Source: Coffea arabica | Taxonomy: Eukaryota > Streptophyta > Magnoliopsida > Gentianales > Rubiaceae | Length of the DNA: 64,000 bases | Direction: 5' to 3' | Assembly: GCF_036785885.1 (NCBI RefSeq) | Contig: NC_092317.1 | Coordinates: 6,574,501-6,638,500, forward strand | In this document: positions 838-57,720 of the stretch, one piece after another | Numbering within the stretch: position 1 is the first letter of the stretch | Layout: every line of letters starts with the position of its first letter | Notes under the pieces: model-generated | Databases searched by the model: none | Told to the model about the DNA's origin: nothing | What the model saw: the letters and a program-made list of their open reading frames with translations, nothing else | Program-made: the position numbers and the translations under genes

Positions 838-1224
838 ACTCTGACTAGTAATGAATGGAATTTGGAAGTGTGAATTGGAGAGATGAAACAGAGGAGGAGC
901 TATGGGCTGGCCAGTGGTGGGAGCCGCAATTTAGGAATAGACTTCAATTGACTGAAAGTGGTACATTTGCGTCTTTAGGGTATTTTTGGCTTTTTACTCA
1001 ACTCCATCTGTTTTAATGATTTCCGTCAACTTTTTAGAATAATTCAAATCATGGGGTATCGACGCGTATAATATTAAACCACAAGGGGCTTTTCTATATG
1101 ATAGCTATACCACCGGGGGCTTTTCTGTTTTTGACCCTTAGTTTTTCTTGATCTGTGAATAGTGCTTCAGTAATAAAGAAAGAAAGGTATTAGTTTATTT
1201 TGTAATAGAGGGTTGATGTATTTG
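838..1224. other. intergenic, no gene seen
   Basis: I see no open frame of note. Around 1010-1130 there are phrases such as accacaaggggcttttct that resemble worn ends of the MULE-type MITE seen better at 30.1 kb. Confidence 0.4.
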
Positions 1225-2222
1225 TGTGAAAGATGCAGATTGTTTTATAGAAAAAGGATTGCTATATATATTAGATACATGTTAAGTACATATGATTTTC
1301 ATTGATTTGTATTAATACGAAACAATATAATCGATTTATATATACTGATTGGATACACAAAGAATTTTTATTCATTTGCATATATTAGATGCACGTAGGA
1401 TTTTTAGCGATTTCCATAATTTTTTCATATTTAATATTTTTGCTAATATATACATTTTGGAGAAAAGTAATAAATAAGTGAATAAATATAAAAAGAAGGC
1501 TATTGTATGTATTAGATGTGCATAGCATTTTTAGTGATTTGTGTATTTTTTAATACTTAATATCTTTGTCAATATACACACTTTCGACAAAGTTAATATA
1601 TAAGCGGATAAATATAAAGAAGGAGGGAAAATTATAAACATAGAAATAGTCATGAAATTATAATTATTTGACATAAATAACACTTATTATACGTTAATAC
1701 AAAGCAGTATTATTAATTTATATATATTAGATATACGCTAAACACGTATAATTTTCATTGATCTGCATTAATACAAAACAACATAATCGATTTATATATA
1801 TTAATTAGATACACATAGAATTTTTATTCGTTAGTATGTATTAGATGTACATAGAATTTTTAGCAACCTGCGTAATTTTTTGATATTTAATATTTTTTTT
1901 CAATATACACACTTTCGACAAAGTTAATAAATAAGTGAGTTAATAAATAAGCGGATAAATATAAAGAAGGGGGAAAATTATAAACATAGAAATAGTCTTG
2001 AAATTATAATTATTTCATATAAATAACACTTATTATATGTTAATACAAAGCGGTATTATTAATTTATATATATTAGATACATGCTAAACATATATGGTTT
2101 TTATTGATCTGCATTAATACAATACAGCATAATTGATATATATATTGATTAGATGGACATAGAATTTTTATTCGTTTGTATGTATTAGATGTACATAGGA
2201 TTTTTAGCGACCTGCATATCAA
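1225..2222. repeat. degenerate tandem repeat, about three units, period about 344 bp
   Basis: AT-rich array. The marker attagata followed by catg/tacg and TAAgcac-like sequence recurs at about 1269, 1727 and 2071. Each unit also carries a block with atcgatttatatat, then agaatttttattcgtt, then attagatgtacataggattt. The last two markers are 344 bp apart. The first interval is 458 bp because of an extra internal copy of the ttagatgtgcatagcatttt block near 1510-1620. The units have clearly diverged, so the array is old. It lacks coding potential and the spacer pattern of a CRISPR. Confidence 0.8.
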
Positions 2223-3319
2223 AGTAGCCTCCTGAGCACCCGACCCAATTGCCATCTCTCTAAGCGGGCGCATTCATTGTGCCTTGATTAAAATAACAAG
2301 TCTTGACCCATGTCGAGTCTGATGGCCGTACTTGAACTTGATAAAGCACACAAGTCCAGCGGATAGGGGCCCAATCTTTTTAGCATGGATGCAGCGCAAG
2401 GGCTGGAAAATACTACAATGTATAGTCCTAATTCCGAATGTGCCTTAATCAGGTAGTAATAAACAAAAGATTAACCCAGCCCCATATCATAGGACTTGTA
2501 AGTTCCAATCGAAAATAAGCCCCAAGCTTTTTAGAACCACGGGGCTAGCACTAGCAGTTGTGAACTTTAGGGTCTATCTATGGGCCTTTGTTGAAGAATG
2601 ATACTGCTCGGAGACGGGCCTTCAAGCATGCTTCGCGATAATTGTGAAATGTTAGTGCATTACTACATTTGTCTGTAGTCAAGAAGCAAAACATTACTCT
2701 TTCCGTCAACAAGAATTGGATTAATTACATGCTCGGTATTCTTGATGGTATTCCATTAAGGCCACGACATAATTAATTATTCTCAGCCCTTTTTCTTTTC
2801 TTTTTTTTTTTTTTGGAGTGCATGGCTAGATGGTTATTTGTCCTCTGCAAATTAAAGTCTTCTGTTCCTCCCTCCACTTTGTATTTTCCATTAACTCCTT
2901 TTAAATATTAAGGCAAAATAATTTCTACCGTATTTTTTTACAGTATAACATAACATTACTGACTGTCACCTAGTGCTTATATGAACTTGCCTCATTAACA
3001 CGACACAACCTTCAGACTCCAACAATGGACTCGCGACTAAATAATCACTACCCTCAACAATGGCATGGCAAAATGAAATACATTAGTAGTATCAAATCAT
3101 CTCCATTGGAAACAAGGAAGCAGATCACAAAAGTCCATAGGTAACTTAAGTTTTTTTTTTTTTTTTTTGGTTTTTTACCCCCCAGCAGGATCTATTTGAA
3201 AGACAGACACATGCATATTACAATAGCAAGAATTTAGCAAAAAGAAAAGAAAAACAGTATATAATGTTCAAAATAATACGTGTATTGTCGCGAATTTCTT
3301 GAAGCTGAATCGTGCAGTG
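2223..3319. other. intergenic, unique sequence with homopolymer runs
   Basis: A less AT-rich, apparently unique block (2225-2650) abuts the tandem array abruptly at about 2222. T-rich runs lie at about 2795 and 3150. No recognisable gene. The part from about 3180 on is the likely 3' flank of the minus-strand gene that follows. Confidence 0.4.
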
Positions 3320-3847
3320 CTATTTGATCATCCGTTTGAAAAAATCCAATTGCCAAGAGATGATAATCGCAATAGCGGATATTATGTAAATGGCCCAGGA
3401 AAGGAGCTTGAGCCACAGAGAAGAAAAGGCCGTGATTGCCAGAAAAAAGGCAGTGACGCCGCTAAATACTCCGACGTACTGGAGCAATCGAGCCTGTGCT
3501 CCAAAATTTGGAGCCACGAACTTGGAGACCACAAAAGCGGCCAAGGAGAAAACCAAACCCAGCCGAGCCACGTCCAAGCTAACAGATAAATGTAGGTGGC
3601 TGGAACCTTGGCACTGCAAGCCGATGCCGATGCCGATTGCTGCAAAGCTATAACCCATAATTAAGGTAAGCCATTCTGGATTTATTTCGGGACGACGGTT
3701 GTTCTGGTCAGCAGCAGCTGGCTGGGGAAGCGGTTGATGGTGGGACGTTGGTTTGCCGGGATCCTCCAAATCCATTTCTGCTTTGACAGCTGGGCACTCC
3801 GGTGATGATGGTGGAGTTGGTGGCGGAGAGTCTTGGACTTTCTTCAT
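3320..3847 (-). CDS. small four-helix membrane protein, family copy 1 (subtype A)
   Basis: Single-exon gene for 175 residues if translation starts at the second Met (3847); an in-frame Met at 3862 would add five residues. I prefer 3847 because it lines up the Ser/Pro-rich N-terminus (about 1-60) with the start of copy 5 at 26.5 kb. Four hydrophobic helices follow: the first begins at EWLTLIMGYSFAAIG, the second contains VFSLAAFVVSKFVAP, the third GVFSGVTAFFLAIT, the fourth LKLLSWAIYIISAIAII. The motif pair AFFLAIT...LKxxSWxIY is shared by all copies in this window. A TATAAAC box on the minus strand at 3903-3909 sits about 55 bases upstream. I do not recognise the family; localisation and function are unknown. 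Membrane topology is inferred from hydrophobicity by eye. Confidence 0.8.
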   Translation of the reverse strand: MKKVQDSPPPTPPSSPECPAVKAEMDLEDPGKPTSHHQPLPQPAAADQNNRRPEINPEWLTLIMGYSFAAIGIGIGLQCQGSSHLHLSVSLDVARLGLVFSLAAFVVSKFVAPNFGAQARLLQYVGVFSGVTAFFLAITAFSSLWLKLLSWAIYIISAIAIIISWQLDFFKRMIK

Positions 3848-4867: not shown

Positions 4868-7800
4868 AAACTTGATTCCGCTCGTTTGCAGCCCAACTCT
4901 TAACATATTCAGCTCTTCATCTTTCATTTTTTTTTTCTTTTTCCAGAAATATGTCAATTCAAGACCACTAATACGACCATATTCTCCAGCAAAATCTCCC
5001 TTTTGTCAATCTGCTGTAAAGGAAAGCAGACTTTGGTTGACTCTCATTTTAGGCGCGGGAGCAGGAAAATCGGCCGTCGTCGCCCCGTGCAAGGGCGGGC
5101 ATGGCTGAAGTTAGAACACGATGCCCCAACGACGTTGAGGATATTGACGGAACTTTTAGTAAATCGGAGTTCCTGGATTACATTGGTACTAAACTTCACA
5201 CGTCCGTAAGCACCTCTCGCAAAAGTTTTCGTGTTTTCTGGGACGAGGAAGATGATGAATCAAATAGCTATCAGACACTCTTTTCCCAGGGTAACTGTTA
5301 AAGTTTTTTTTTTATTTGGCCATCAATTCTCCCTTCGTCACTCTGTATATTTTTACTTGCATTACTAAGTACTATTTTTTTTTTTTTTTGGATAGTGGGT
5401 CCACCTTTACTTCCTCCTCCCATCGTCAAGGACAAGATCAAAATTGCGCTGCAGCATGTTGATCTCCTGTATAATCGAGCAATGCTAGCTCAGTTCTGGG
5501 TGCCGGTGATGATCGGGGGACGGCGATTCCTGAAATCCTCAGACCAGCCTTTTGGGTTGACTTGCTTAAGGAAAGGACTATGTTCGTACAGAAAGCTGTG
5601 TCTGAATTATTACTACTGTACGGATAATACCTGCAGTAGTGATGGTGGTGCTGATTATGTGGATGTGGATGTGGACTGGAATGGCGGAGGAGGGGTAAGA
5701 GAAAGCGTGCTTCTCACTGGTCCGCCTTCACGTGTCTTTCTTCGTGGACTGCCGGAGTATAGCCCAAGCGTGGAGTTCTACGCGGACTCGGAATATCCTT
5801 TAAGGGATGAGGCTATGGGCCGTAAGATAAGCGACTATATGGCTGTGCCTGTGTTCGATCCCAATTCCCGAGAATGTATTGGCGTAATTGAGCTGGTTTC
5901 AACTGCTGACTCAGTTAGAGGTAAGTAATTAGTATTAAAATTTCACAATTTCTGGTCACGGCCAGACGTGGGAAAGGAAGGGGAGTGGGGGAAGGCGGGG
6001 GAAGGAGGGAGAAGAAGGAAGGCGGGGAGGGCAGGGGAGGGGAAGGGAGGAAGGAGGGGGTGGCGGTGGTAGTGGTAGTGGTGGTAGTGGAAGAAAAAAA
6101 TGTGCCAGGATTTGTTTTTTTATTTATTTTTTTATTTTTGGGGGTATTTTTGTAAGCTGCATTTGAGATTGTGTGTGTGTGTCTTTCTAAAATTATTATT
6201 AATATTGTGGGCTCTAAATATAAAAACGATTTTTGAAAAAAATATCATATTCATATAGACCCATAGTTTTCTATTTACTTGCAACTGAGTAGAGCTCAAT
6301 CCCGCTACTTGCAAGCTTCGTTCGATCATCAGTTTCAACTCAAATAGCTCGACAAGCTTAATGAACTACTCGTGTCTGAGCTTAACGTGTGAGGCTCGAA
6401 AGTTCATCGAGTCCAATGCTTTTTCAAGAGTTGAAATAGAATTTGCTTATGAGCATTGGCCACCAACGTATATGTAGACATCGACCTAGGGGGATTCTTG
6501 GGCTATTGAACGTCGGTTGTAACAGAAGTTATAGGTGTTGGTTTATAAATATGATGATTAAGACTTACCTCTTCAACTAGTTTTTAACTGTTTTAGAGTA
6601 GGAAGACCGAATTACGTCCACCAGGGATAATATTTCATTTTACTTTACAGCTAGCTTTTCGCAAGTATAAATTCGGCTAATTGGAAAATCCTCGTGTTGC
6701 CAAATTTGCAATGACACTTATATTTTGACACCGCACTGTTTTGTTAGGTTAAATCTAAATCCTAAAGTTCAATTGACAGATGTCAAATTATCTGTTGGTG
6801 CAAATTAGAGGAATATAACCTCGTAATGAATAACAAGAAATTGGTTTTAAGTCGTGAATTAGATTCACTTTCCTTTAGGTTAAATTCGTCCTCTATTTAG
6901 TGCAATATCATAGATGAATTCCCTTTAGAATGAAATGAAGTTTGTCTTGATAATACTTTATGCTGACGTTCAAGATCCTAATGAGGAAGTGTTTGATGTA
7001 TTTTTACAGAATATCTAGTATTGATGGAATGATTTTCTGCAATAAATTAGCCCTCAATTGATCTTCGATCTCTTTATAAACTAGCAGATGTCACATATTA
7101 TTTTGGTTAAGTTAAATTCATACCGTTGTTTGCAATAAGACTAGGTACTTTTCTCATTGATACTGGTACTATAACTGCCTAAAGGTTCGGATGTTTGATA
7201 AAGGGCTGCACATTAGCCCGCCACCCCTTCCTCTTCCCCTTGGTGAGTTGGTGCTTTTCTTGCTATTAATACCGTTGCACTTAACACCTTCACTGAATCA
7301 TTGAAACATTGTAGCAGAGATGGATAAGCCTGCATATATATTTGGGTTAATCTCGACGGCACTTCAGGTTTGTCCTTGCTTCCTCCTCACCTAGCACTCG
7401 AAACCGGTAGGAAGAGTTATTCAAATCGCTATTCTTGTATAGTATTAGCTTCATTTTCTTTTAATATCAAGTAATACTCCATCTAGTACTTCACAATTTT
7501 TATTTTTTTTTAAAAAAATTATTGCAATTTACTCTAAGTTCATAATTTGTGTCATAGACGTTAGAATGCTCTTCAATTTATGGTGCAATGCATTTAAGTC
7601 TTACTTGTCAAAGCCTTGGTACAAGCTGCTGAAATATGCTTTTATTCCTCTATCAAGAAGCTCAATTGCCTTCTAGTTCAAAATTATTCCCGGTCTGTTA
7701 TTCAAACTATTTCTTTTTCTAGATGTTAACAGTTTTTGTTTTGAACAGGGGGTAGAATTGAGGACTTCAAATTTTACCAGCGATTTTGACTTGGAGAGCG

Positions 7801-9350
7801 ACTTGGCGAAGGTAAGTTGCAGTTTTGTTTTGTCAATGACCGATAAAACTTTCTTCCATTAATGCTGAAGTTCTAATTACCTTTCTCTCTCGGAAAATTT
7901 TCTTAGCAGAGCTCAACAGATATATCCCATGCACTGCGTGACATCCGCAAAGCATTAGGTGATGCATGCCAAACACACAATTTGCCTTTTGCTCAGACCT
8001 GGATGCCTCAGTTAGGGAAATGTCATAGCTACACAGATAATGCCCTTTCAACAACGAGTAACGAATATTACCTCTCACACGCAAGATTCTCTTTATTTAG
8101 AGATACCTGTGAAAGTTTTCCGCTATTGAGGGGGCGAGGGGTTGTTTGGAAATCATATTCTACAGGTTATCCGTGCTTCTGTAGAGATGTAACCAAGTTG
8201 AGCATAGCTGATTACTCCTTTGCTCACGTTGGCAAAAAGGTTCTCTTAGACAGCTCTTTAGCAATTTGTTTAAAGAGCGATCATACGGGGAATGATGTTT
8301 ATGTACTTGAGCTCTTTCTGCCCTTTAAGACTGCTGATCCTAGAAAACTTCTGGAATCTGTCTTACTCACGATGAAGAAGCATCTCAATAGTTTCAGACT
8401 TGCTTCTGGGCATACACTGGAGGATGAGATGTTTGTTGAAGTTTTGAAAGTTTTAAAAGAAGACAAGTTCGATTTGTTCAGATTGTTTCATACTGACGGT
8501 GGTTCTGATGAACTGCTGGATCGTGGTTCCTCAATCCATCAACAACTGTTCCCAGATGACCAAAACTGGCTACTTAGTTCAATAAATACTGCAAACACAT
8601 TGATCGCTGACGAACAACGGTTGGAGGATTTGGTTTCATACCCACGCTTATTAGAAGCCTCTGATTCAAAACTTAGCCTCGTAACGGGTGATGATCTTGC
8701 TGCATGGAAGGAAGATTCTTGTGATACTCAATCCGTGAAAGAAGGCAACAGTAATATTAATTCCTCTGCTTCAACATTTAGTTTTCCAGCTCAAGATAAT
8801 TTGGAAAGCTTAGTTGCAGAAGATGCTGGATTCAATGCACCTCTAAGTCGTGATGTAGACTTTTCTGTAAATAAGGAAAGCATAAGTTCAGCATCAGATT
8901 TGGACAAACTTGACCGTGAAACTATTGAGAAACACTCTCATTTGACGCTTAAAGATGCTGCTAAGAGTCTTAGAGGTTAGTCACAGTGGTATATTCTGGT
9001 GCACTCAACAAATTATCTGGCCATTTTTTAGCTCAATGATGCATATATTATTTCCTATTCCGAATTTTCAGTGAGTCCATCCACGCTCAAGAGGAAATGT
9101 AGGAAATTTGGCATCCCAAGGTGGCCGCGCAAGAGAAACCAGGACACTTGCTCTCCTACTAGCACTGAATCCAACAAAGACCGCGAAATACCTAATGCAG
9201 AATATGGTCAGGAGGTCTCACATCCTAATGTGTCTTCTCAAGAAGGTACAAATTCCAGCAAGCACAATTCCTTACAAGCTGCAACAATAGCGAAGGATAG
9301 CTTCATGATGATAAAGGCTGCATATGGAGGGATAAAGAAGATTAAGTTTC
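4868..9350 (+). repeat. tandem segmental duplication, unit 1 (4.48 kb)
   Basis: The sequence from about 4868 to 9350 recurs downstream at an offset of 4482 up to base 5763 and at 3594 after base 6651. Unit 1 therefore keeps 888 bp (5764-6651) that unit 2 lacks. The junction near 9347-9352 joins the PB1-coding sequence tttcaactt directly to the upstream flank acttgattccgctcg. The two parental sites share AACTT, so this is a head-to-tail duplication with short microhomology. Confidence 0.93.
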
Positions 9351-9385
9351 AACTTGATTCCGCTCGTTTGCAGCCCAACTCTTAA
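5101..9385 (+). CDS. NIN-like protein (NLP) transcription factor, copy 1, PB1 domain truncated
   Basis: NLPs are plant nitrate-response transcription factors. Exons read from GT-AG sites and frame: 5101-5290, 5396-5920, 7315-7367, 7749-7811, 7907-8975, 9072-9385 (stop included), giving 737 residues. The GAF-like N-terminal region is mainly in exon 2 (about residues 64-238, with ALQHVDLLYNRAMLAQFW). The segment with HNLPFAQTWMP spans exons 3-5. The RWP-RK domain crosses the exon 5/6 junction (LKDAAKSLR, then SPSTLKRKCRKFGIPRWPRK); its first helix is poorly conserved and lacks the usual VLQQYF stretch. PB1 begins at about residue 727 (IKAAYGGIKKIKFQL) and is cut at the duplication junction, after which ten foreign codons and a stop follow. 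Exon 5 has a NAGNAG acceptor (tagcag). Protein interaction through PB1 should be lost unless the transcript reads into copy 2. Confidence 0.85.
5942..6095 (+). repeat. purine-rich G tract in intron 2 of NLP copy 1
   Basis: Nearly pure purine DNA from about 5968 to 6091, built of GGGGAAGG, GGAGG and GGTAGTGGTGG units, with many G runs of three or more on the plus strand. It could form G-quadruplex or triplex structures. It lies wholly inside the 888-bp segment missing from copy 2. Confidence 0.75.
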
Positions 9386-12300
9386 CATATTCAGCTCTTC
9401 ATCTTTCATTTTTTTTTTCTTTTTCCAGAAATATGTCAATTCAAGACCACTAATACGACCATATTCTCCAGCAAAATCTCCCTTTTGTCAATCTGCTGTA
9501 AAGGAAAGCAGACTTTGGTTGACTCTCATTTTAGGCGCGGGAGCAGGAAAATCGGCCGTCGTCGCCCCGTGCAAGGGCGGGCATGGCTGAAGTTAGAACA
9601 CGATGCCCCAACGACGTTGAGGATATTGACGGAACTTTTAGTAAATCGGAGTTCCTGGATTACATTGGTACTAAACTTCACACGTCCGTAAGCACCTCTC
9701 GCAAAAGTTTTCGTGTTTTCTGGGACGAGGAAGATGATGAATCAAATAGCTATCAGACACTCTTTTCCCAGGGTAACTGTTAAAGTTTTTTTTTTATTTG
9801 GCCATCAATTCTCCCTTCGTCACTCTGTATATTTTTACTTGCATTACTAAGTACTATTTTTTTTTTTTTTTGGATAGTGGGTCCACCTTTACTTCCTCCT
9901 CCCATCGTCAAGGACAAGATCAAAATTGCGCTGCAGCATGTTGATCTCCTGTATAATCGAGCAATGCTAGCTCAGTTCTGGGTGCCGGTGATGATCGGGG
10001 GACGGCGATTCCTGAAATCCTCAGACCAGCCTTTTGGGTTGACTTGCTTAAGGAAAGGACTATGTTCGTACAGAAAGCTGTGTCTGAATTATTACTACTG
10101 TACGGATAATACCTGCAGTAGTGATGGTGGTGCTGATTATGTGGATGTGGATGTGGACTGGAATGGCGGAGGAGGGGTAAGAGAAAGCGTGCTTCTCACT
10201 GGTCCGCCTTCACGTGTCTTTCTTCGTGGACTGCCGGAGTATAGCTAGCTTTTCGCAAGTATAAATTCGGCTAATTGGAAAATCCTCGTGTTGCCAAATT
10301 TGCAATGACACTTATATTTTGACACCGCACTGTTTTGTTAGGTTAAATCTAAATCCTAAAGTTCAATTGACAGATGTCAAATTATCTGTTGGTGCAAATT
10401 AGAGGAATATAACCTCGTAATGAATAACAAGAAATTGGTTTTAAGTCGTGAATTAGATTCACTTTCCTTTAGGTTAAATTCGTCCTCTATTTAGTGCAAT
10501 ATCATAGATGAATTCCCTTTAGAATGAAATGAAGTTTGTCTTGATAATACTTTATGCTGACGTTCAAGATCCTAATGAGGAAGTGTTTGATGTATTTTTA
10601 CAGAATATCTAGTATTGATGGAATGATTTTCTGCAATAAATTAGCCCTCAATTGATCTTCGATCTCTTTATAAACTAGCAGATGTCACATATTATTTTGG
10701 TTAAGTTAAATTCATACCGTTGTTTGCAATAAGACTAGGTACTTTTCTCATTGATACTGGTACTATAACTGCCTAAAGGTTCGGATGTTTGATAAAGGGC
10801 TGCACATTAGCCCGCCACCCCTTCCTCTTCCCCTTGGTGAGTTGGTGCTTTTCTTGCTATTAATACCGTTGCACTTAACACCTTCACTGAATCATTGAAA
10901 CATTGTAGCAGAGATGGATAAGCCTGCATATATATTTGGGTTAATCTCGACGGCACTTCAGGTTTGTCCTTGCTTCCTCCTCACCTAGCACTCGAAACCG
11001 GTAGGAAGAGTTATTCAAATCGCTATTCTTGTATAGTATTAGCTTCATTTTCTTTTAATATCAAGTAATACTCCATCTAGTACTTCACAATTTTTATTTT
11101 TTTTTAAAAAAATTATTGCAATTTACTCTAAGTTCATAATTTGTGTCATAGACGTTAGAATGCTCTTCAATTTATGGTGCAATGCATTTAAGTCTTACTT
11201 GTCAAAGCCTTGGTACAAGCTGCTGAAATATGCTTTTATTCCTCTATCAAGAAGCTCAATTGCCTTCTAGTTCAAAATTATTCCCGGTCTGTTATTCAAA
11301 CTATTTCTTTTTCTAGATGTTAACAGTTTTTGTTTTGAACAGGGGGTAGAATTGAGGACTTCAAATTTTACCAGCGATTTTGACTTGGAGAGCGACTTGG
11401 CGAAGGTAAGTTGCAGTTTTGTTTTGTCAATGACCGATAAAACTTTCTTCCATTAATGCTGAAGTTCTAATTACCTTTCTCTCTCGGAAAATTTTCTTAG
11501 CAGAGCTCAACAGATATATCCCATGCACTGCGTGACATCCGCAAAGCATTAGGTGATGCATGCCAAACACACAATTTGCCTTTTGCTCAGACCTGGATGC
11601 CTCAGTTAGGGAAATGTCATAGCTACACAGATAATGCCCTTTCAACAACGAGTAACGAATATTACCTCTCACACGCAAGATTCTCTTTATTTAGAGATAC
11701 CTGTGAAAGTTTTCCGCTATTGAGGGGGCGAGGGGTTGTTTGGAAATCATATTCTACAGGTTATCCGTGCTTCTGTAGAGATGTAACCAAGTTGAGCATA
11801 GCTGATTACTCCTTTGCTCACGTTGGCAAAAAGGTTCTCTTAGACAGCTCTTTAGCAATTTGTTTAAAGAGCGATCATACGGGGAATGATGTTTATGTAC
11901 TTGAGCTCTTTCTGCCCTTTAAGACTGCTGATCCTAGAAAACTTCTGGAATCTGTCTTACTCACGATGAAGAAGCATCTCAATAGTTTCAGACTTGCTTC
12001 TGGGCATACACTGGAGGATGAGATGTTTGTTGAAGTTTTGAAAGTTTTAAAAGAAGACAAGTTCGATTTGTTCAGATTGTTTCATACTGACGGTGGTTCT
12101 GATGAACTGCTGGATCGTGGTTCCTCAATCCATCAACAACTGTTCCCAGATGACCAAAACTGGCTACTTAGTTCAATAAATACTGCAAACACATTGATCG
12201 CTGACGAACAACGGTTGGAGGATTTGGTTTCATACCCACGCTTATTAGAAGCCTCTGATTCAAAACTTAGCCTCGTAACGGGTGATGATCTTGCTGCATG

Positions 12301-12945
12301 GAAGGAAGATTCTTGTGATACTCAATCCGTGAAAGAAGGCAACAGTAATATTAATTCCTCTGCTTCAACATTTAGTTTTCCAGCTCAAGATAATTTGGAA
12401 AGCTTAGTTGCAGAAGATGCTGGATTCAATGCACCTCTAAGTCGTGATGTAGACTTTTCTGTAAATAAGGAAAGCATAAGTTCAGCATCAGATTTGGACA
12501 AACTTGACCGTGAAACTATTGAGAAACACTCTCATTTGACGCTTAAAGATGCTGCTAAGAGTCTTAGAGGTTAGTCACAGTGGTATATTCTGGTGCACTC
12601 AACAAATTATCTGGCCATTTTTTAGCTCAATGATGCATATATTATTTCCTATTCCGAATTTTCAGTGAGTCCATCCACGCTCAAGAGGAAATGTAGGAAA
12701 TTTGGCATCCCAAGGTGGCCGCGCAAGAGAAACCAGGGCACTTGCTCTCCTACTAGCACTGAATCCAACAAAGACCGCGAAATACCTAATGCAGAATATG
12801 GTCAGGAGGTCTCACATCCTAATGTGTCTTCTCAAGAAGGTACAAATTCCAGCAAGCACAATTCCTTACAAGCTGCAACAATAGCGAAGGATAGCTTCAT
12901 GATGATAAAGGCTGCATATGGAGGGATAAAGAAGATTAAGTTTCA
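9351..12945 (+). repeat. tandem segmental duplication, unit 2 (3.6 kb, internal 888-bp deletion)
   Basis: Near-identical to unit 1. The deletion point is at 10241-10246, where tatagc is followed directly by tagcttttcgc. Both ends of the deleted piece carry AGC, a 3-bp microhomology. Where I compared the units base by base I found one substitution: A at 9144 against G at 12738 (Asp to Gly). Intron poly-T lengths I checked match (15 T). Confidence 0.93.
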
Positions 12946-13153
12946 ACTTCGATTTTCGTCACGGTTGGTAGATATGGAGATGGAAGCGGCATCAAGGCTC
13001 AAGTTAAAAGTTGGAGATTTCAAGTTTTGGTATTTGGATGAAGATGATGACTGGATATTGATAACCTGTGATGCAGACGTGAGGACTATGGAATCAATGG
13101 GTAAGAATACAATCAAAGTGTCTATCACTCACGGTGATGATGCTCCATCCTAA
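9583..13153 (+). pseudogene. NIN-like protein (NLP), copy 2, GAF exon truncated, intact RWP-RK and PB1
   Basis: Exons equivalent to copy 1 are 9583-9772, 9878-10248 (broken), 10909-10961, 11343-11405, 11501-12569 and 12666-13153. The 888-bp deletion removes the last part of exon 2 and its splice donor, so reading from the local ATG stops at 10248 after about 186 residues. The last exon is complete: RWP-RK second half (GIPRWPRKR), linker, and a full PB1 domain of about 80 residues with the acidic patch YLDEDDDW and ending KVSITHGDDAPS. Its own promoter region is the tail of copy 1, because the duplication brought only about 230 bp of upstream DNA. On its own this copy is probably a pseudogene. 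Its last exon could serve as the 3' end for a copy 1 transcript: exons 1-5 of copy 1 plus 12666-13153 sum to 2388 bases, 795 residues, in frame. Confidence 0.85.
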
Positions 13154-13395
13154 ACAAAAAGGGAAAAAGAAACACACTACTACCAAGGGACAATGAATGT
13201 TTTCACCAAAAAGGAAATGTCCATGGCCCCATTCTTTTACATTTGCTACGTTTTGCGTTATTCAATTAGTGATTGAAGCCTTGAGATTAGATCCGTAAAA
13301 GTGTATTTGTAATTCTTTTTACTGCCTTATCATAACAGGGCAACTACACTGGCACCCGCTAGTGCCCATTTTTGTGCCTAATCGAAGCCTGATGA

Positions 13396-13474
13396 TGAAA
13401 GTGGCAGCTCTGTATCATGATATGGTCTAAAATTTTTGACTTATTATACCTGAAAGTGGCAGCTCTGTATCATG
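13396..13474 (+). repeat. 24-bp direct repeat, 55-bp spacing
   Basis: The sequence beginning tgaaagtggcagctctgta occurs at 13396 and again at 13451, extending to about 24 identical bases. Short local duplication in the NLP 3' flank. Confidence 0.85.
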
Positions 13475-13511
13475 TGAAAATTTTCTACCAATTTTTGATA
13501 TAATAAAATAC

Positions 13512-29361: not shown

Positions 29362-29454
29362 TGGATACTATCAACTGGTGATCAGGACTTGGGGACCATG
29401 GAATCCACAGGGAAGACTACAATTAAAATGTCTATCCTGAAGGTTAGAGGATGA
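29362..29454 (+). pseudogene. orphan NLP PB1-domain fragment
   Basis: Translates as WILSTGDQDLGTMESTGKTT then IKMSILKVRG and a stop. This lines up with the C-terminal PB1 segment of the NLP at 13054-13153 (WILITCDADVRTMESMGKNT, then IKVSI). Sixteen kilobases from the NLP pair and separated from it by four membrane-family genes or relics. No other NLP exon is visible nearby, so it is a remnant of a third NLP copy. Confidence 0.8.
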
Positions 29455-40947: not shown

Positions 40948-41289
40948 TTGATTAATGAGACTCAAATCCAAGATCTCCTGGCACTTCCTTAATGTATATA
41001 TATTCACCTCTATAATTTACCAAGTCTATCATTCTTACTTGCAAAATGTGTAGAGTACTCAATTTGAAAAAAAAAAAAAAAAGTATACAAATTCTCTATT
41101 ATTTTCTTTTTTTTTTTGGGGGGGAACTCTACAATGATCTCACTTGTCAGACAGCAACGTCAGAAATAACGAAAATAACTGTCATTCTTGAACTCACCGC
41201 CCACTTGAACAGATAACGAGGAGGATAGAGGCGTTGGGAAAAGGTCTCCCGAGCTAACAAACCGAGGCAACCACTGCACCTCCTAGGTC

Positions 41290-43902
41290 ATGGCTTTGGT
41301 GCTCCCGTTATTTTCAAGCCATCATCTCCACCACCATAATCATCATCATCATCACCTCCCCATTCGCAATCCCATCAGCAATCATTCAGTTCAATCGATT
41401 TCCACCCCAGTTGAGAACAGAAGTGGTCGTCGTAATTCTCCTCTTGAAGAAATAACTGAACTTTGCGAATCAAAAACTCTCATCAAAGCCTTGAATTTGA
41501 TTCAAGAAAATCCGCATAATAGCTTTCTTGATCCAACCCAAAAAGCTTTAGCCTTGGGAATACTCTTACAGGCCTGTGGAGTTGACAAAAACATTGAAAT
41601 AGGAAGAAAAGTCCATGAATTAATTCGGGAGTCGATCCATTTGAGAAATAATCCTGTACTAAATACTAGGGTCATTACAATGTATGCAATGTGTGGTTCT
41701 CCCTCAGATTCCCGCTCTGTTTTTGATCAAATACGGGGGAAAAATCTGTACCAATGGAATGCGCTTTTGAGTGGGTATACAAGAAATGAGTCTTACTATG
41801 ATGCGTTGTATCTTTTTGATGAAATGATCTCAATAACAGAATATATGCCGGATAATTTTACGTTTCCTTGTGTTATAAAGGCTTGTGGAGGGATTTTGGA
41901 TGTGGATTTGGGAATGGCTGTTCATGGGATGGTAGTGAAGATGGGTTTGGCTTCTGATGTGTTTGTGGGGAATGCATTGATTGCTATGTATGGGAGGTTT
42001 GGGATTCTTGAGAATGCCGACAAGATGTTTGAGTTTATGCCTGAGAAGAACTTGGTTTCTTGGAATTCTATGCTTTCCGTTCTGTCCGAAAATGGGTGTT
42101 TTCAAGAAAGTTTCAATTTTTTTAGAGAATTGTTAATGGGTTTGGATGGATTGGTTCCTGATTCAGCTACAATGGTGACTATTTTGCCTGCTTGCGCAGG
42201 GGAAGGGGATTCCGTGATGGGAAAGGCTGTTCATGGTTTAGTGGTGAAATTTGGGATGAGTGGGGATGTAATGGCGAGCAATGCACTAATTGACATGTAT
42301 TCAAAATGTGGGCTTTTGGAGGAAGCCCGAGTTACTTTTGACTTGAATGATAGCAAGAATGTAGTATCTTGGAATTCAATGATTGGCGGGTATTCTAGAA
42401 AAGGACTTATTGATGGAACATTTGACCTTGTGAGGAAGATGCAAATGGAAAGGGATAAGTTCAAGGCTAATGAATTAACAGTGTTGAACGTATTGCCTTG
42501 TTGTCAGGCGGCTTCAGAGCTATTGTATTTGAAGGAACTTCAAGGATATTCTATTAGACAGGGGTTTGTAAATGGTGAATTGTTAGCGAACGCTTTTATT
42601 ACAGCATATGCTAGATGTGCTTTATTAAGTACGGCAGAGTGTCTGTTTGATAAATTGGAGAGGAAAGCAGTGAGCTCCTGGAATGCACTTATAGGTGGAT
42701 GTGTACAGAATGGGAATCCATCCAAAGCATTAGAAAAGTATCTTGAAATGGCACATTCAGGAATTGACCCTGACTTGGTTAGCATTGGTAGCCTTCTTTT
42801 AGCTTGTAATCATTTGAAATCACTATGGTATGGTAAAGAAATTCACGGTTTTGTTCTTAGAAAGGGGTTAGAAATTGATTCGTTTATCAGTACATCACTG
42901 CTTTCACTTTACTTTAGTTGTGATATTCCAGCACATGCACAAGTTCTATTTGACAGCATGGAGACAAGAGGGTTAGTGTCTTGGAATGCAATGATTGCAG
43001 GGTACTTGCACTATAGACTGCCTTGTGCAGCTTTGGATATCTTTCGTGAAATGGTATCTGATGGTATCCAACCTAAAGAAATTACTATAGTAGGTGCCCT
43101 AGGTGCTATTTCACGGTTGTCAGCTTTGCATCTTGGGAAAGAAGCTCATTGCTTCGCTCTGAAGGTTGACTTAATGAAGGATAGTTTGGTTAATTGTTCA
43201 TTAATTGACATGTATGCCAAAAGTGGGTCAATAGAATTATCCCAAACAGTTTTTGATCAGGTACAGGATAAAGACACTGCATTATGTACAGCTATGATTT
43301 CTGGCTATGCAATTCATGGATATGGAAAGGAGGCTCATATGCTATTCCAGAAACTGAAAAAGCTTGGCTTGAAGCCCAACCTCTGTACATTTTCTAATAT
43401 CCTAATTGCATGTAACCATGCTGGAATGATTGAACAGGGACTTAGTTATTTAACCGAAATGCATGCTTTTCACAACATAGAGCCTAAGTTGCAGCATTAT
43501 GCATGTGTAATTGACATGCTCGGTCGTGCAGGACGATTTGTTGATGCTTTAGAGCTAATTGCTAGTATGCCTATTAAACCCGATGCCAGAATTTGGAGCT
43601 CATTGCTTAGTTCCTGTAGAAATCACCGTGAGTTGGATTTGGGAAATGAATTTGCTGAGAAATTGTTAGAATTGGAGCCAAGCAGAGCTGAAAGTTATAT
43701 TCTAGTCTCTAACTTCTTTGCTGGTTTTGGGAAGTGGGATGATGTGAGAAGGGTCAGGGGTATAATGAAAGAGATGGGACTGCAGAAGGATGTAGGTTGT
43801 AGTTGGACTGAAGTTGGAGGGAAAACTTATAGCTTCATTGTTAGTGACGAAATGCTTCCTGACTCAGAAGAGATTAGGCTTATGTGGAAGACATTAGAGT
43901 AG
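41290..43902 (+). CDS. PLS-class pentatricopeptide repeat protein, E-type end, DYW domain missing
   Basis: Intronless, 870 residues, as usual for this class. PPR proteins of the PLS class bind organellar RNA and mostly act in C-to-U editing. Residues 1-25 include a His-rich run (about 11-24) and probably belong to an organelle transit peptide. Repeated P, L and S motifs run through the protein, visible as recurring VFVGNALIAMYGRFG, NLVSWNSMLS, VVSWNSMIGGYSRKG and SLIDMYAKSG. The E region begins near KPDARIWSSLLSSCRNHREL and continues to KDVGCSWTEVGGKTYSF. The reading and length resemble Arabidopsis At1g18485 (from memory), which continues into a DYW domain; here a TAG stop falls at that point. 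If editing is the role, the deaminase would have to be supplied by a partner. Start chosen as the first ATG before the His run. Confidence 0.92.
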   Translation: MALVLPLFSSHHLHHHNHHHHHLPIRNPISNHSVQSISTPVENRSGRRNSPLEEITELCESKTLIKALNLIQENPHNSFLDPTQKALALGILLQACGVDKNIEIGRKVHELIRESIHLRNNPVLNTRVITMYAMCGSPSDSRSVFDQIRGKNLYQWNALLSGYTRNESYYDALYLFDEMISITEYMPDNFTFPCVIKACGGILDVDLGMAVHGMVVKMGLASDVFVGNALIAMYGRFGILENADKMFEFMPEKNLVSWNSMLSVLSENGCFQESFNFFRELLMGLDGLVPDSATMVTILPACAGEGDSVMGKAVHGLVVKFGMSGDVMASNALIDMYSKCGLLEEARVTFDLNDSKNVVSWNSMIGGYSRKGLIDGTFDLVRKMQMERDKFKANELTVLNVLPCCQAASELLYLKELQGYSIRQGFVNGELLANAFITAYARCALLSTAECLFDKLERKAVSSWNALIGGCVQNGNPSKALEKYLEMAHSGIDPDLVSIGSLLLACNHLKSLWYGKEIHGFVLRKGLEIDSFISTSLLSLYFSCDIPAHAQVLFDSMETRGLVSWNAMIAGYLHYRLPCAALDIFREMVSDGIQPKEITIVGALGAISRLSALHLGKEAHCFALKVDLMKDSLVNCSLIDMYAKSGSIELSQTVFDQVQDKDTALCTAMISGYAIHGYGKEAHMLFQKLKKLGLKPNLCTFSNILIACNHAGMIEQGLSYLTEMHAFHNIEPKLQHYACVIDMLGRAGRFVDALELIASMPIKPDARIWSSLLSSCRNHRELDLGNEFAEKLLELEPSRAESYILVSNFFAGFGKWDDVRRVRGIMKEMGLQKDVGCSWTEVGGKTYSFIVSDEMLPDSEEIRLMWKTLE

Positions 43903-55646: not shown

Positions 55647-56954
55647 TCAAGTAGCTCTTTGGTCCCTCTTCCTCCTTTCATAGTCTGGATCATCAGTAGG
55701 CAACTCATACCTACAAACAGGACATGTATTCCTAATCCCCAGCCATGGAAGAATACAATCCCCATGATACCTATGATTACAAGGCAGCTGCCTTGCCTTC
55801 TCACCAACTCCCATCTCATCCTTACAAACAGCACAAATCAAGCTATTCTTTTTCAAATCCTCCTCACACAAAATCACTAAAGGAAGACTCTTTACAACGT
55901 TCTTAGCAGCTGGTGGCCTGCCTATTATGGCATTTTCGCTCTCTGCAAATTGCCCAAACAACATCTCATACTCAGCGGTGTAGTTGTACTCATCATGCTC
56001 GTTTACGCCAAAATTCAACTCATTGAACCCTTCATTCACATTCTCGGGGATTGCTTCCAAATTCTGCACATCTAACAAAACCTCCCAGTCCAAATTCCTA
56101 GATACATCTGCACTCTCCTCCCGGGCCATCACCGGCATGTCATCATCATCCAGAAACATGCTCAGAACCTCTCTCTCATCAACTCCTTCATCCACTTCCT
56201 CCCACTCAAAATCCTCATTAACTTCTCTATGATCCTCTATCTGAAAAGAATCCCAACAGAGCCTAAGGCTTGGATCATCATCACCCTCACTTATATCATC
56301 ATCGTCAGCACTAAAATCAATCTCAACGTCATGGTTTATATCAGAATCCGATTCCGACCCGATATCCACGACTCGCAACCCGGTTACAAAATGGTCCCCA
56401 CCCTCAAAATTTTCAGCTACGAACCCCGAATTTTCCACATTTGCCGAAGTGGGCTCTCCGAGAAACCCTAGATTCAGATCAAGATCCAAATGGGTCGGCT
56501 CCATTCCGTCGTTTCCTTCATGAATCCCGAAATTCGGGCCAGCATCGGAAATCTCCGGGTCAATCACCACACAGGTTGTGGAGGACAATTGGGACTGCTC
56601 AACTCGTTGGTGCAGGAGGTCCATAACGAAATTGACCTGATTCTCGCGGTCGAAAAGATCAGCGCTGGTGACAACCGATTCGGGCTCCGACACGATGTCG
56701 CTGGGGGAATCAACCAATATTGATGATGAACGATGGAGAGTGGAGAGTCGGCCACGGGGAAGAACATCGGACGGTGGGAAATCGGAGGAGGGATCTAAAG
56801 TGAAGGCATCGAAATCGGAAGACCAGTAGGGATCGAGATGATGGCGGTGGGGATGGGTTTGATGATGAGAAAAATCTACTTCTTCAATGACGTCGTCTAG
56901 GCCGTCATCGTCCTGGTGGAGTCTGAGTAGTTGAAGCAACGTCGTCTCAGCCAT
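55647..56954 (-). CDS. RING-H2 finger E3 ubiquitin ligase
   Basis: Single exon, 435 residues, starting MAETTLLQLLRLHQDDDGLD. The first 350 residues are acidic and low in predicted structure (runs of Asp/Glu, e.g. EIDFSADDDDISEGDDDPS). The C-terminal RING-H2 finger (about 374-418) has the full C3H2C3 set: CAVCKDE, then CNHRYHGDCILPW, then CPVCRYEL, followed by PTDDPDYERRKRDQ. The finger resembles plant ligases of the CIP8/BCA2-like group and proteins like At5g60820 (recalled). It should pass ubiquitin from an E2 to unknown substrates, probably in cytosol or nucleus, since there is no signal peptide or membrane helix. The ATG is the first in frame and is followed by a conserved-looking MAE start. 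Confidence 0.93.
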   Translation of the reverse strand: MAETTLLQLLRLHQDDDGLDDVIEEVDFSHHQTHPHRHHLDPYWSSDFDAFTLDPSSDFPPSDVLPRGRLSTLHRSSSILVDSPSDIVSEPESVVTSADLFDRENQVNFVMDLLHQRVEQSQLSSTTCVVIDPEISDAGPNFGIHEGNDGMEPTHLDLDLNLGFLGEPTSANVENSGFVAENFEGGDHFVTGLRVVDIGSESDSDINHDVEIDFSADDDDISEGDDDPSLRLCWDSFQIEDHREVNEDFEWEEVDEGVDEREVLSMFLDDDDMPVMAREESADVSRNLDWEVLLDVQNLEAIPENVNEGFNELNFGVNEHDEYNYTAEYEMLFGQFAESENAIIGRPPAAKNVVKSLPLVILCEEDLKKNSLICAVCKDEMGVGEKARQLPCNHRYHGDCILPWLGIRNTCPVCRYELPTDDPDYERRKRDQRAT

Positions 56955-57720
56955 TCTGTTTCAGCGGGGTGGGGAGAGTAGGAGGAATAAAAGTGAGAAA
57001 GGAAACACCTTTTTTTCGAAAATTATTTTCTATCTAAAAATTCCCATCTTTTTGCGTTTTCTTTTGTTTGATATTCTACGCCATGGGCCAAGGGGGTAGG
57101 TGATCAGCAATTTCCTCTTTTATTTTCTCTCTCATTTTGACTAAAAATGAGCACTTTTCCAGCTTCCCTTCTTGATTTCTAGTTTTTTTTTTTTAATTCA
57201 ATACACTCAGAGAAAAAAAAAAAAAGAAGAAGAAAATTCTACCTCAAGTGCTTTAGGTTCTTTTAATCATGAAGGAAGATATGTTCTGAACGTCCTTAAG
57301 TACGGAATTAAATTTCAACAACTCGATAGTTTGTTTGGATTGAGTATTATTTATCCAGTTTTATTTGCTTACATCATCATTATAATTTTTAATACACCTT
57401 TTTATCTTTTCAATTATCTTTTTATCTCACATACATCACATCACAAAAAGTGCTACAGTAAAAATATTCCAAATAATCCCAAATAACTTACCATCCAAAC
57501 AATTATTCTCGTGATTTACTAGTTTTTATTAAATTTCTTCATAAAATTGAACATGCTTCCAAGTATAGGAGTTTTCGATGGGTTCAGAACATGTTTTGGA
57601 GATCTTTTGCTCCAACTTTAGGCCTAAGTGCTAGCAATTCTATATATTATATTCCATCCACCATAGTTTGGAACCGTTTATTACTTGGAACAGTTTTTTC
57701 TTGTCTTCAGTGGAGAAATG
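56955..57720. other. 5' flank of the RING gene and intergenic DNA
   Basis: Contains the RING promoter side, poly-T and poly-A runs near 57182 and 57214, and the MITE at 57.3 kb. Confidence 0.45.
57334..57500. mobile_element. MITE, same family as the 25.4-kb hairpin
   Basis: Begins gtttggattgagtattattt and ends taacttaccatccaaac. The inner segment ctttttatctcacatacatc followed by acatcacaaaaagtgctaca is shared almost exactly with 25690-25735. Confidence 0.75.

Follow-up and report, generated by a model that had tools for sequence, protein, structure and literature searches.

An NLP gene divided by a partial tandem duplication, and an amplified last exon of its sister gene on the homologous contig

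We analysed a window of 64,000 nucleotides (C8:6574501-6638500) in a 1.198-Gb, 131-contig plant assembly, in which a gene of the NIN-like protein (NLP) family, transcription factors of the nitrate-response type, at 4869-13153 is interrupted by a 4,482-bp direct tandem duplication internal to the gene (Table 1; positions are those of the window unless a contig is named). The repeat is direct, adjacent and near-identical and has a defined junction, as a partial intragenic tandem duplication should: 5 bp of microhomology (AACTT) are common to both unit edges, and only a single site of the whole assembly has the exact 32-base string of the junction. Copy 2 lacks 888 bp, a gap that has AGC (3 bp) in common on both break sides and that removes the end of exon 2 with its donor. 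Across the 3,602 positions compared (4869-5763 and 6649-9355, breaks excluded) the copies differ by one mismatch, A at 9144 in copy 1 and G at 12738 in copy 2, of which A is probably the derived state because the protein encoded on the homologous contig C7 has the glycine that G encodes. Beyond the two structural breaks, no stop or frameshift was seen in the duplicated gene, and exon 5 DNA has four matches in the genome: two on C8, one on C7 and a distant one on C10. An earlier note on this DNA had described a tandem NLP pair in which copy 1 loses the PB1 domain at the junction and copy 2 keeps an intact RWP-RK/PB1 exon; the alignment, the breaks and the unique junction string agree with its anatomy and coordinates, and the reading frames and Pfam matches with its two predicted proteins.

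Table 1. Units of the duplication and exons of the NLP gene, in window coordinates.
Feature	Position	Strand	Remarks
Copy 1 unit	4869..9350	+	4,482 bp; begins 232 bp before the ATG, ends midway in exon 6
Copy 2 unit	9351..12944	+	lacks 888 bp (equivalent of 5764-6651)
Exon 1, copy 1	5101..5290	+	ATG at 5101
Exon 2, copy 1	5396..5920	+	donor intact at 5921
Exon 3, copy 1	7315..7367	+	
Exon 4, copy 1	7749..7811	+	
Exon 5, copy 1	7907..8975	+	GAF_NLP domain and first part of RWP-RK
Exon 6a	9072..9385	+	remaining RWP-RK; PB1 lost at junction; stop 9383-9385
Exon 1, copy 2	9583..9772	+	same sequence as copy 1 exon 1; donor 9773
Exon 2 remnant, copy 2	9878..10245	+	donor deleted; in-frame stop right past break
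Exon 3, copy 2	10909..10961	+	identical to copy 1
Exon 4, copy 2	11343..11405	+	identical to copy 1
Exon 5, copy 2	11501..12569	+	identical to copy 1
Exon 6b	12666..13153	+	remaining RWP-RK and intact PB1; stop 13151-13153

Two last exons with intact acceptors can be joined in frame to exons 1-5 of copy 1. With exon 6b these give an open frame of 2,388 nt and 795 amino acids (aa), and with exon 6a one of 737 aa without PB1, the lengths given in the earlier note. All introns of the models are GT-AG; nearby alternative GT/AG choices allow 32 open combinations which, among those listed, encode 794-796 or 736-738 aa. Pfam places GAF_NLP at aa 282-440 (E 1.5e-41), RWP-RK at 612-655 (61 bits, cut-off 29.3) and PB1 at 712-785 (36.4 bits, cut-off 23.6) in the 795-aa model; GAF_NLP and RWP-RK are also matched in the 737-aa model, in which Pfam finds no PB1. 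Compared with solved structures, the exon 6 protein has a single weak match, to NBR1 (E 0.42). The domain that Pfam names GAF_NLP is carried by exon 5, which is intact in both copies; the part broken in copy 2 is exon 2, which has no Pfam hit. The "GAF-like" label that had been given to exon 2 is defensible as homology only, because at 6 of 8 strong NLP places in the genome the main GAF_NLP match is preceded, about 1-1.4 kb upstream, by a weak second one. Judged from the layout, what the 795-aa "chimera" represents is the ancestral gene, parted by an inserted extra segment. An open frame is to be expected of such a product, and we rejected the view that this frame is surprising in itself.

The join of exon 5 of copy 1 to exon 6b is only one of four junctions from copy 1 to copy 2 (5-6b, 4-5', 3-4' and 2-3', spanning introns of 3,690, 3,689, 3,975 and 4,988 nt, respectively) that yield an identical 795-aa protein, and from the identity of the exons the mature mRNAs of these four routes are predicted to be alike. 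The two exon 6 acceptors, noted earlier to be the same, lie in surroundings that are identical over 2,424 bases on the upstream and 72 on the downstream side, and differ mainly by distance; the nearer one, which closes an intron of 96 nt, should win. The earlier proposal to tell junction 8975-12666 from 8975-9072 by reads assigned through differences in exon 6 fails, because exon 5 does not differ between the copies: reads over the junction internal to copy 2 (12569/12666) look just like those over 8975/12666, so that a count of junction reads is not diagnostic and cannot assign them to copy 1. Copy 2 is also more than a broken copy, as skipping of its donor-less exon 2 (525 nt in full length, a multiple of three, and hence in frame) would leave a 620-aa protein that retains exons 3 to 6b.

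What follows exon 6a bears on the fate of the shorter message. None of eight listed poly(A) hexamers occurs between the 6a stop (9385) and 9877, and hexamers within one mismatch of AATAAA number 0 in 9386-9582, 3 in 9583-9877 (at 9640-9740) and 2 in the native 3' region (13154-13500), which contains AATGAA and TTGTAA; exact AATAAA is found in neither the post-6a nor the native 3' region, and TGTA motifs are present in both (those after 6a at 9497 and 9826). The scan suggests that there is no terminator after 6a, weakly so given that the native 3' end itself shows only two one-mismatch hexamers. None of the 17 GT sites in 9386-9772 fits AG|GT or a donor hexamer used elsewhere in this gene, and the next fitting donor is that of copy 2 exon 1, at 9773. 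In a run-on message spliced from there to exon 3', the 6a stop would lie upstream of four junctions. A stop codon upstream of exon junctions is a hallmark of decay targets, and a run-on transcript that includes 6a is therefore a candidate for nonsense-mediated decay.

C7, which behaves as the homologous contig of C8, carries one full NLP allele with an open frame of 787 aa, in which the exon 3 acceptor lies three bases further on, the RWPRK of the window gene is NWPRK, and PB1 is matched at 31.8 bits. The ratio of nonsynonymous to synonymous substitution rates (dN/dS) between the two is 0.62 over 785 codons, with 0.33 in exons 1-2, 0.31 in exons 3-4, 0.39 in the GAF half of exon 5 and 0.51 in exon 6; the overall value, and those of exons 1-2, 3-4 and 6, indicate that the gene was under constraint. 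Divergence is uneven along the gene: dS is 0.04 in exons 1-2 and 0.22 in exon 5 (window 7907-8975 against positions 4152-5193 of C7 piece L029), and the four introns compared diverge by 4.5% to 17%, a mosaic that would fit either old allelic lines or sequence exchange between related copies. The C7 full allele also has an insertion of ~2.5 kb in its intron 2 (L029 about 874-3353) that is absent from the window.

Building on the observed anatomy, frames and intact C7 allele, we consider it probable that the window holds a young partial intragenic tandem duplication on haplotype C8, with reduced or altered output and the C7 allele as backup. The duplication would have created an A-B-B-C layout, in which an extra middle lies between the old promoter side and first part, to the left, and the old 3' end with the last exon, to the right; copy 2 has lost its 888 bp. 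Transcription from the old promoter would run into copy 2. Exon 5 would usually join the nearer exon 6a and give an early-stop, PB1-less message that is a candidate for decay, a minority of transcripts might reach copy 2 through one or other of the four equivalent junctions and encode the full protein, and copy 2 alone could give the 620-aa form without exon 2. The output of the duplicated allele is probably reduced or altered because the default splice would lead to the early stop and leave the crossing to a minority.

Among the alternatives, the one that survives best takes the duplicated allele to be silent, a null pseudogene opposite a C7 allele that alone works. We judge this possible, if on balance unlikely: the intact C7 allele, the early stop met by default splicing and the instability of the neighbourhood speak for it, and the lack of any further stop or frameshift past the two structural breaks, together with the possible in-frame 620-aa product, speaks against it. 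The earlier note had named, as something that would refute its own reading, another intact NLP allele or copy showing the pair to be silent; this applies in part, for such an allele exists on C7, but its presence does not imply silence of the window copy.

Either of these readings, in which a young duplicate allele is weakened or silent while its counterpart is intact, is likelier than the scheme put forward earlier, in which a single gene with two alternative last exons makes full and PB1-less NLP in meaningful amounts by acceptor choice. Its frames and predicted proteins stand, since both products are open and both acceptors intact and identical. A PB1-less form could also act distinctly: in the excerpted text of PMC6393987, Arabidopsis NLP7 with four PB1 core residues substituted needs far higher expression for rescue in plants and gives similar transactivation in protoplasts, and by this analogy a form without PB1, provided that it is stable, might retain some activity, though weak. 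We nevertheless hold the scheme to be improbable, as it sets a 3,690-nt intron against one of 96 nt, makes a choice of acceptor out of what is one of four routes with 6a favoured, and must contend with the absence of AATAAA-like hexamers in 9386-9582 and with a stop before four junctions on a run-on transcript. The duplication, moreover, is found on only C8 of the two homologous contigs, and so bears no sign of long maintenance.

Some points do weigh against our preferred account of a young duplication with impaired output. The linker half of exon 5 has a dN/dS of 1.15, so that constraint was not uniform along the gene. Poly(A) signals in plants are degenerate, and AATAAA is missing even from the native 3' end, so that early termination after 9385 is possible, with the TGTA motifs and the three one-mismatch hexamers as candidate signals; such termination would favour a stable PB1-less protein. 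Lastly, assembly error could be the source of near-identical copies, a prospect we regard as very remote because the copies differ by the 888-bp deletion and one base and because C7, several percent different, cannot have supplied the second one.

On both contigs a short sister gene lies to the left of the full one; it has exons 1, 2 and 6, whereas nothing in the compared stretches matches exons 3-5. On C8 its exon 2 is split by an insertion of ~0.8 kb (L030 about 634-1443), presumably hAT-like, that has inverted TAGGGATGGCAA ends and is bordered by a target duplication of 8 bp; the C7 gene has an intact exon 1 and exon 2, which join exon 6 in frame (397 aa).

The last exon of this sister gene forms a head-to-tail array on C7 that spans ~200 kb (C7:6639525-6839006; pieces L009-L028 and L032) and is a more surprising feature of the locus than the split gene. 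Its unit of ~1,331 bp runs from part of an insertion in intron 2 of the sister gene through exon 6 (the rest of RWP-RK, and PB1) to the 3' region; the front of the unit is also related to the ~2.5-kb insertion of the C7 full allele. By a copy number that rests on the assembly, the array comprises 146 full units, representing 85 distinct sequences, and 4 irregular interior ones (3 with an internal deletion, 1 with an internal partial duplication), and 151 exon 6 acceptor motifs were counted (at most 2 mismatches). It is homogeneous, with 141 of 145 spacings equal to 1,330 or 1,331 and all matches in the first 190 kb on one strand. C8 has one copy of the unit among the best 40 matches scored, the remaining 39 being on C7, and the array flanks are collinear with that single copy at about 95-98% identity.

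Across the 146 full units the exon 6 frame is open in 99, carries one common frameshift in 45 and has an early stop in 2. Variable sites fall evenly on codon positions 1, 2 and 3 (24, 25 and 23), the pattern expected without coding constraint, and diversity at third positions is 0.0206 against 0.0153 and 0.0169 at the others; overall, exon 6 (0.0175) is about as diverse as the intron pieces (0.0145-0.0152) and less so than the 3' part (0.027). In a previous alignment, of 144 copies that were anchored at the acceptor and taken from the array's first 190 kb, 94 frames were open, 46 had the frameshift and 4 were of other kinds; its codon-position counts (87, 84 and 94) include misaligned copies. 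The even counts and the frameshifts led us to reject the idea that the copies are protein-coding genes under clear constraint; given those counts and the intron-like diversity, the array looks like a neutral satellite derived from a gene, in which any signs of past constraint are weak. Should it be transcribed, it might act in trans on the NLP family, either by titration of NLPs with products that bear PB1 or by small RNAs directed at exon 6, with the PB1-less and exon-2-less products of C8 acting against that background. On this reading, which we think improbable, the two haplotypes would have gone opposite ways with a single NLP module.

A GAF_NLP profile has 38 matches on the contigs of the genome. 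They are strong on C5/C6, C15/C16, C17/C18 and C19/C20 and weaker on C1/C2 and C7/C8, and there are clusters on C11, C12 and C13 and single matches on C10 and C14. By its score the window gene is a divergent NLP, and the stronger NLPs elsewhere may carry the core function. The clusters of divergent NLP-like matches lie at 56.33-56.58 Mb on C11, 55.88-55.97 Mb on C12 and 37.04-37.08 Mb on C13, and within the window a stretch of 25 aa at 29362-29436 is similar to the PB1 end of the NLP (68%, E 3.5e-4). Elsewhere in the window are diverged direct repeats at 1263-2218 (80-91% alike, 344-456 bp apart), an 871-aa PPR/E-motif frame at 41287-43902 (+) and a 437-aa RING-finger frame at 55647-56960 (-). 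The literature titles and openings of abstracts listed in searches gave no description of this locus or of an NLP last-exon array.

The window illustrates that a transcription-factor gene can be split by duplication with its whole frame surviving in pieces. It also illustrates how far two haplotypes of one plant can differ at one NLP locus, where 1 sister last exon on C8 contrasts with about 150 on C7, and 2 copies of most of the full gene with 1. Expression of the array or of the split gene would make NLP dosage and PB1 pairing unequal between the haplotypes; should neither be expressed, the locus would represent ordinary structural variation together with an unusual gene-derived satellite.

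Like other NLPs, the 795-aa and 787-aa models have GAF_NLP, RWP-RK and PB1 in that order. In its second exon the RWP-RK match begins at position 21 of the profile, in line with positions 21-22 at the eight strong NLP places. Unlike those, the window gene scores 139 bits per copy for GAF_NLP (258-283 there) and is divided by its tandem duplication. Partial intragenic tandem duplications are a recognised kind, and the window gene resembles them in its direct repeat, its short junction microhomology and its ancestral gene split around an extra segment; it is unlike them in that copy 2 bears a deletion of its own, because of which a full product must exit copy 1 at some point between exons 2 and 6a. 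Dscam is a gene with tandem alternative exons. Brown-algal ROCO genes are likewise described as having tandem alternative exons in the excerpted text of PMC11378527. With both, the window gene has in common last-exon copies that can be served by common upstream exons and keep one reading phase, but here the copies are near-identical rather than diversified. Gene-derived satellite or macrosatellite arrays, finally, are also a recognised kind, and the 146 full head-to-tail units on C7 are like them; this array is unlike them in that its unit is an NLP terminal exon with intron and 3' sequence, and in that the other haplotype holds a single, collinear copy.

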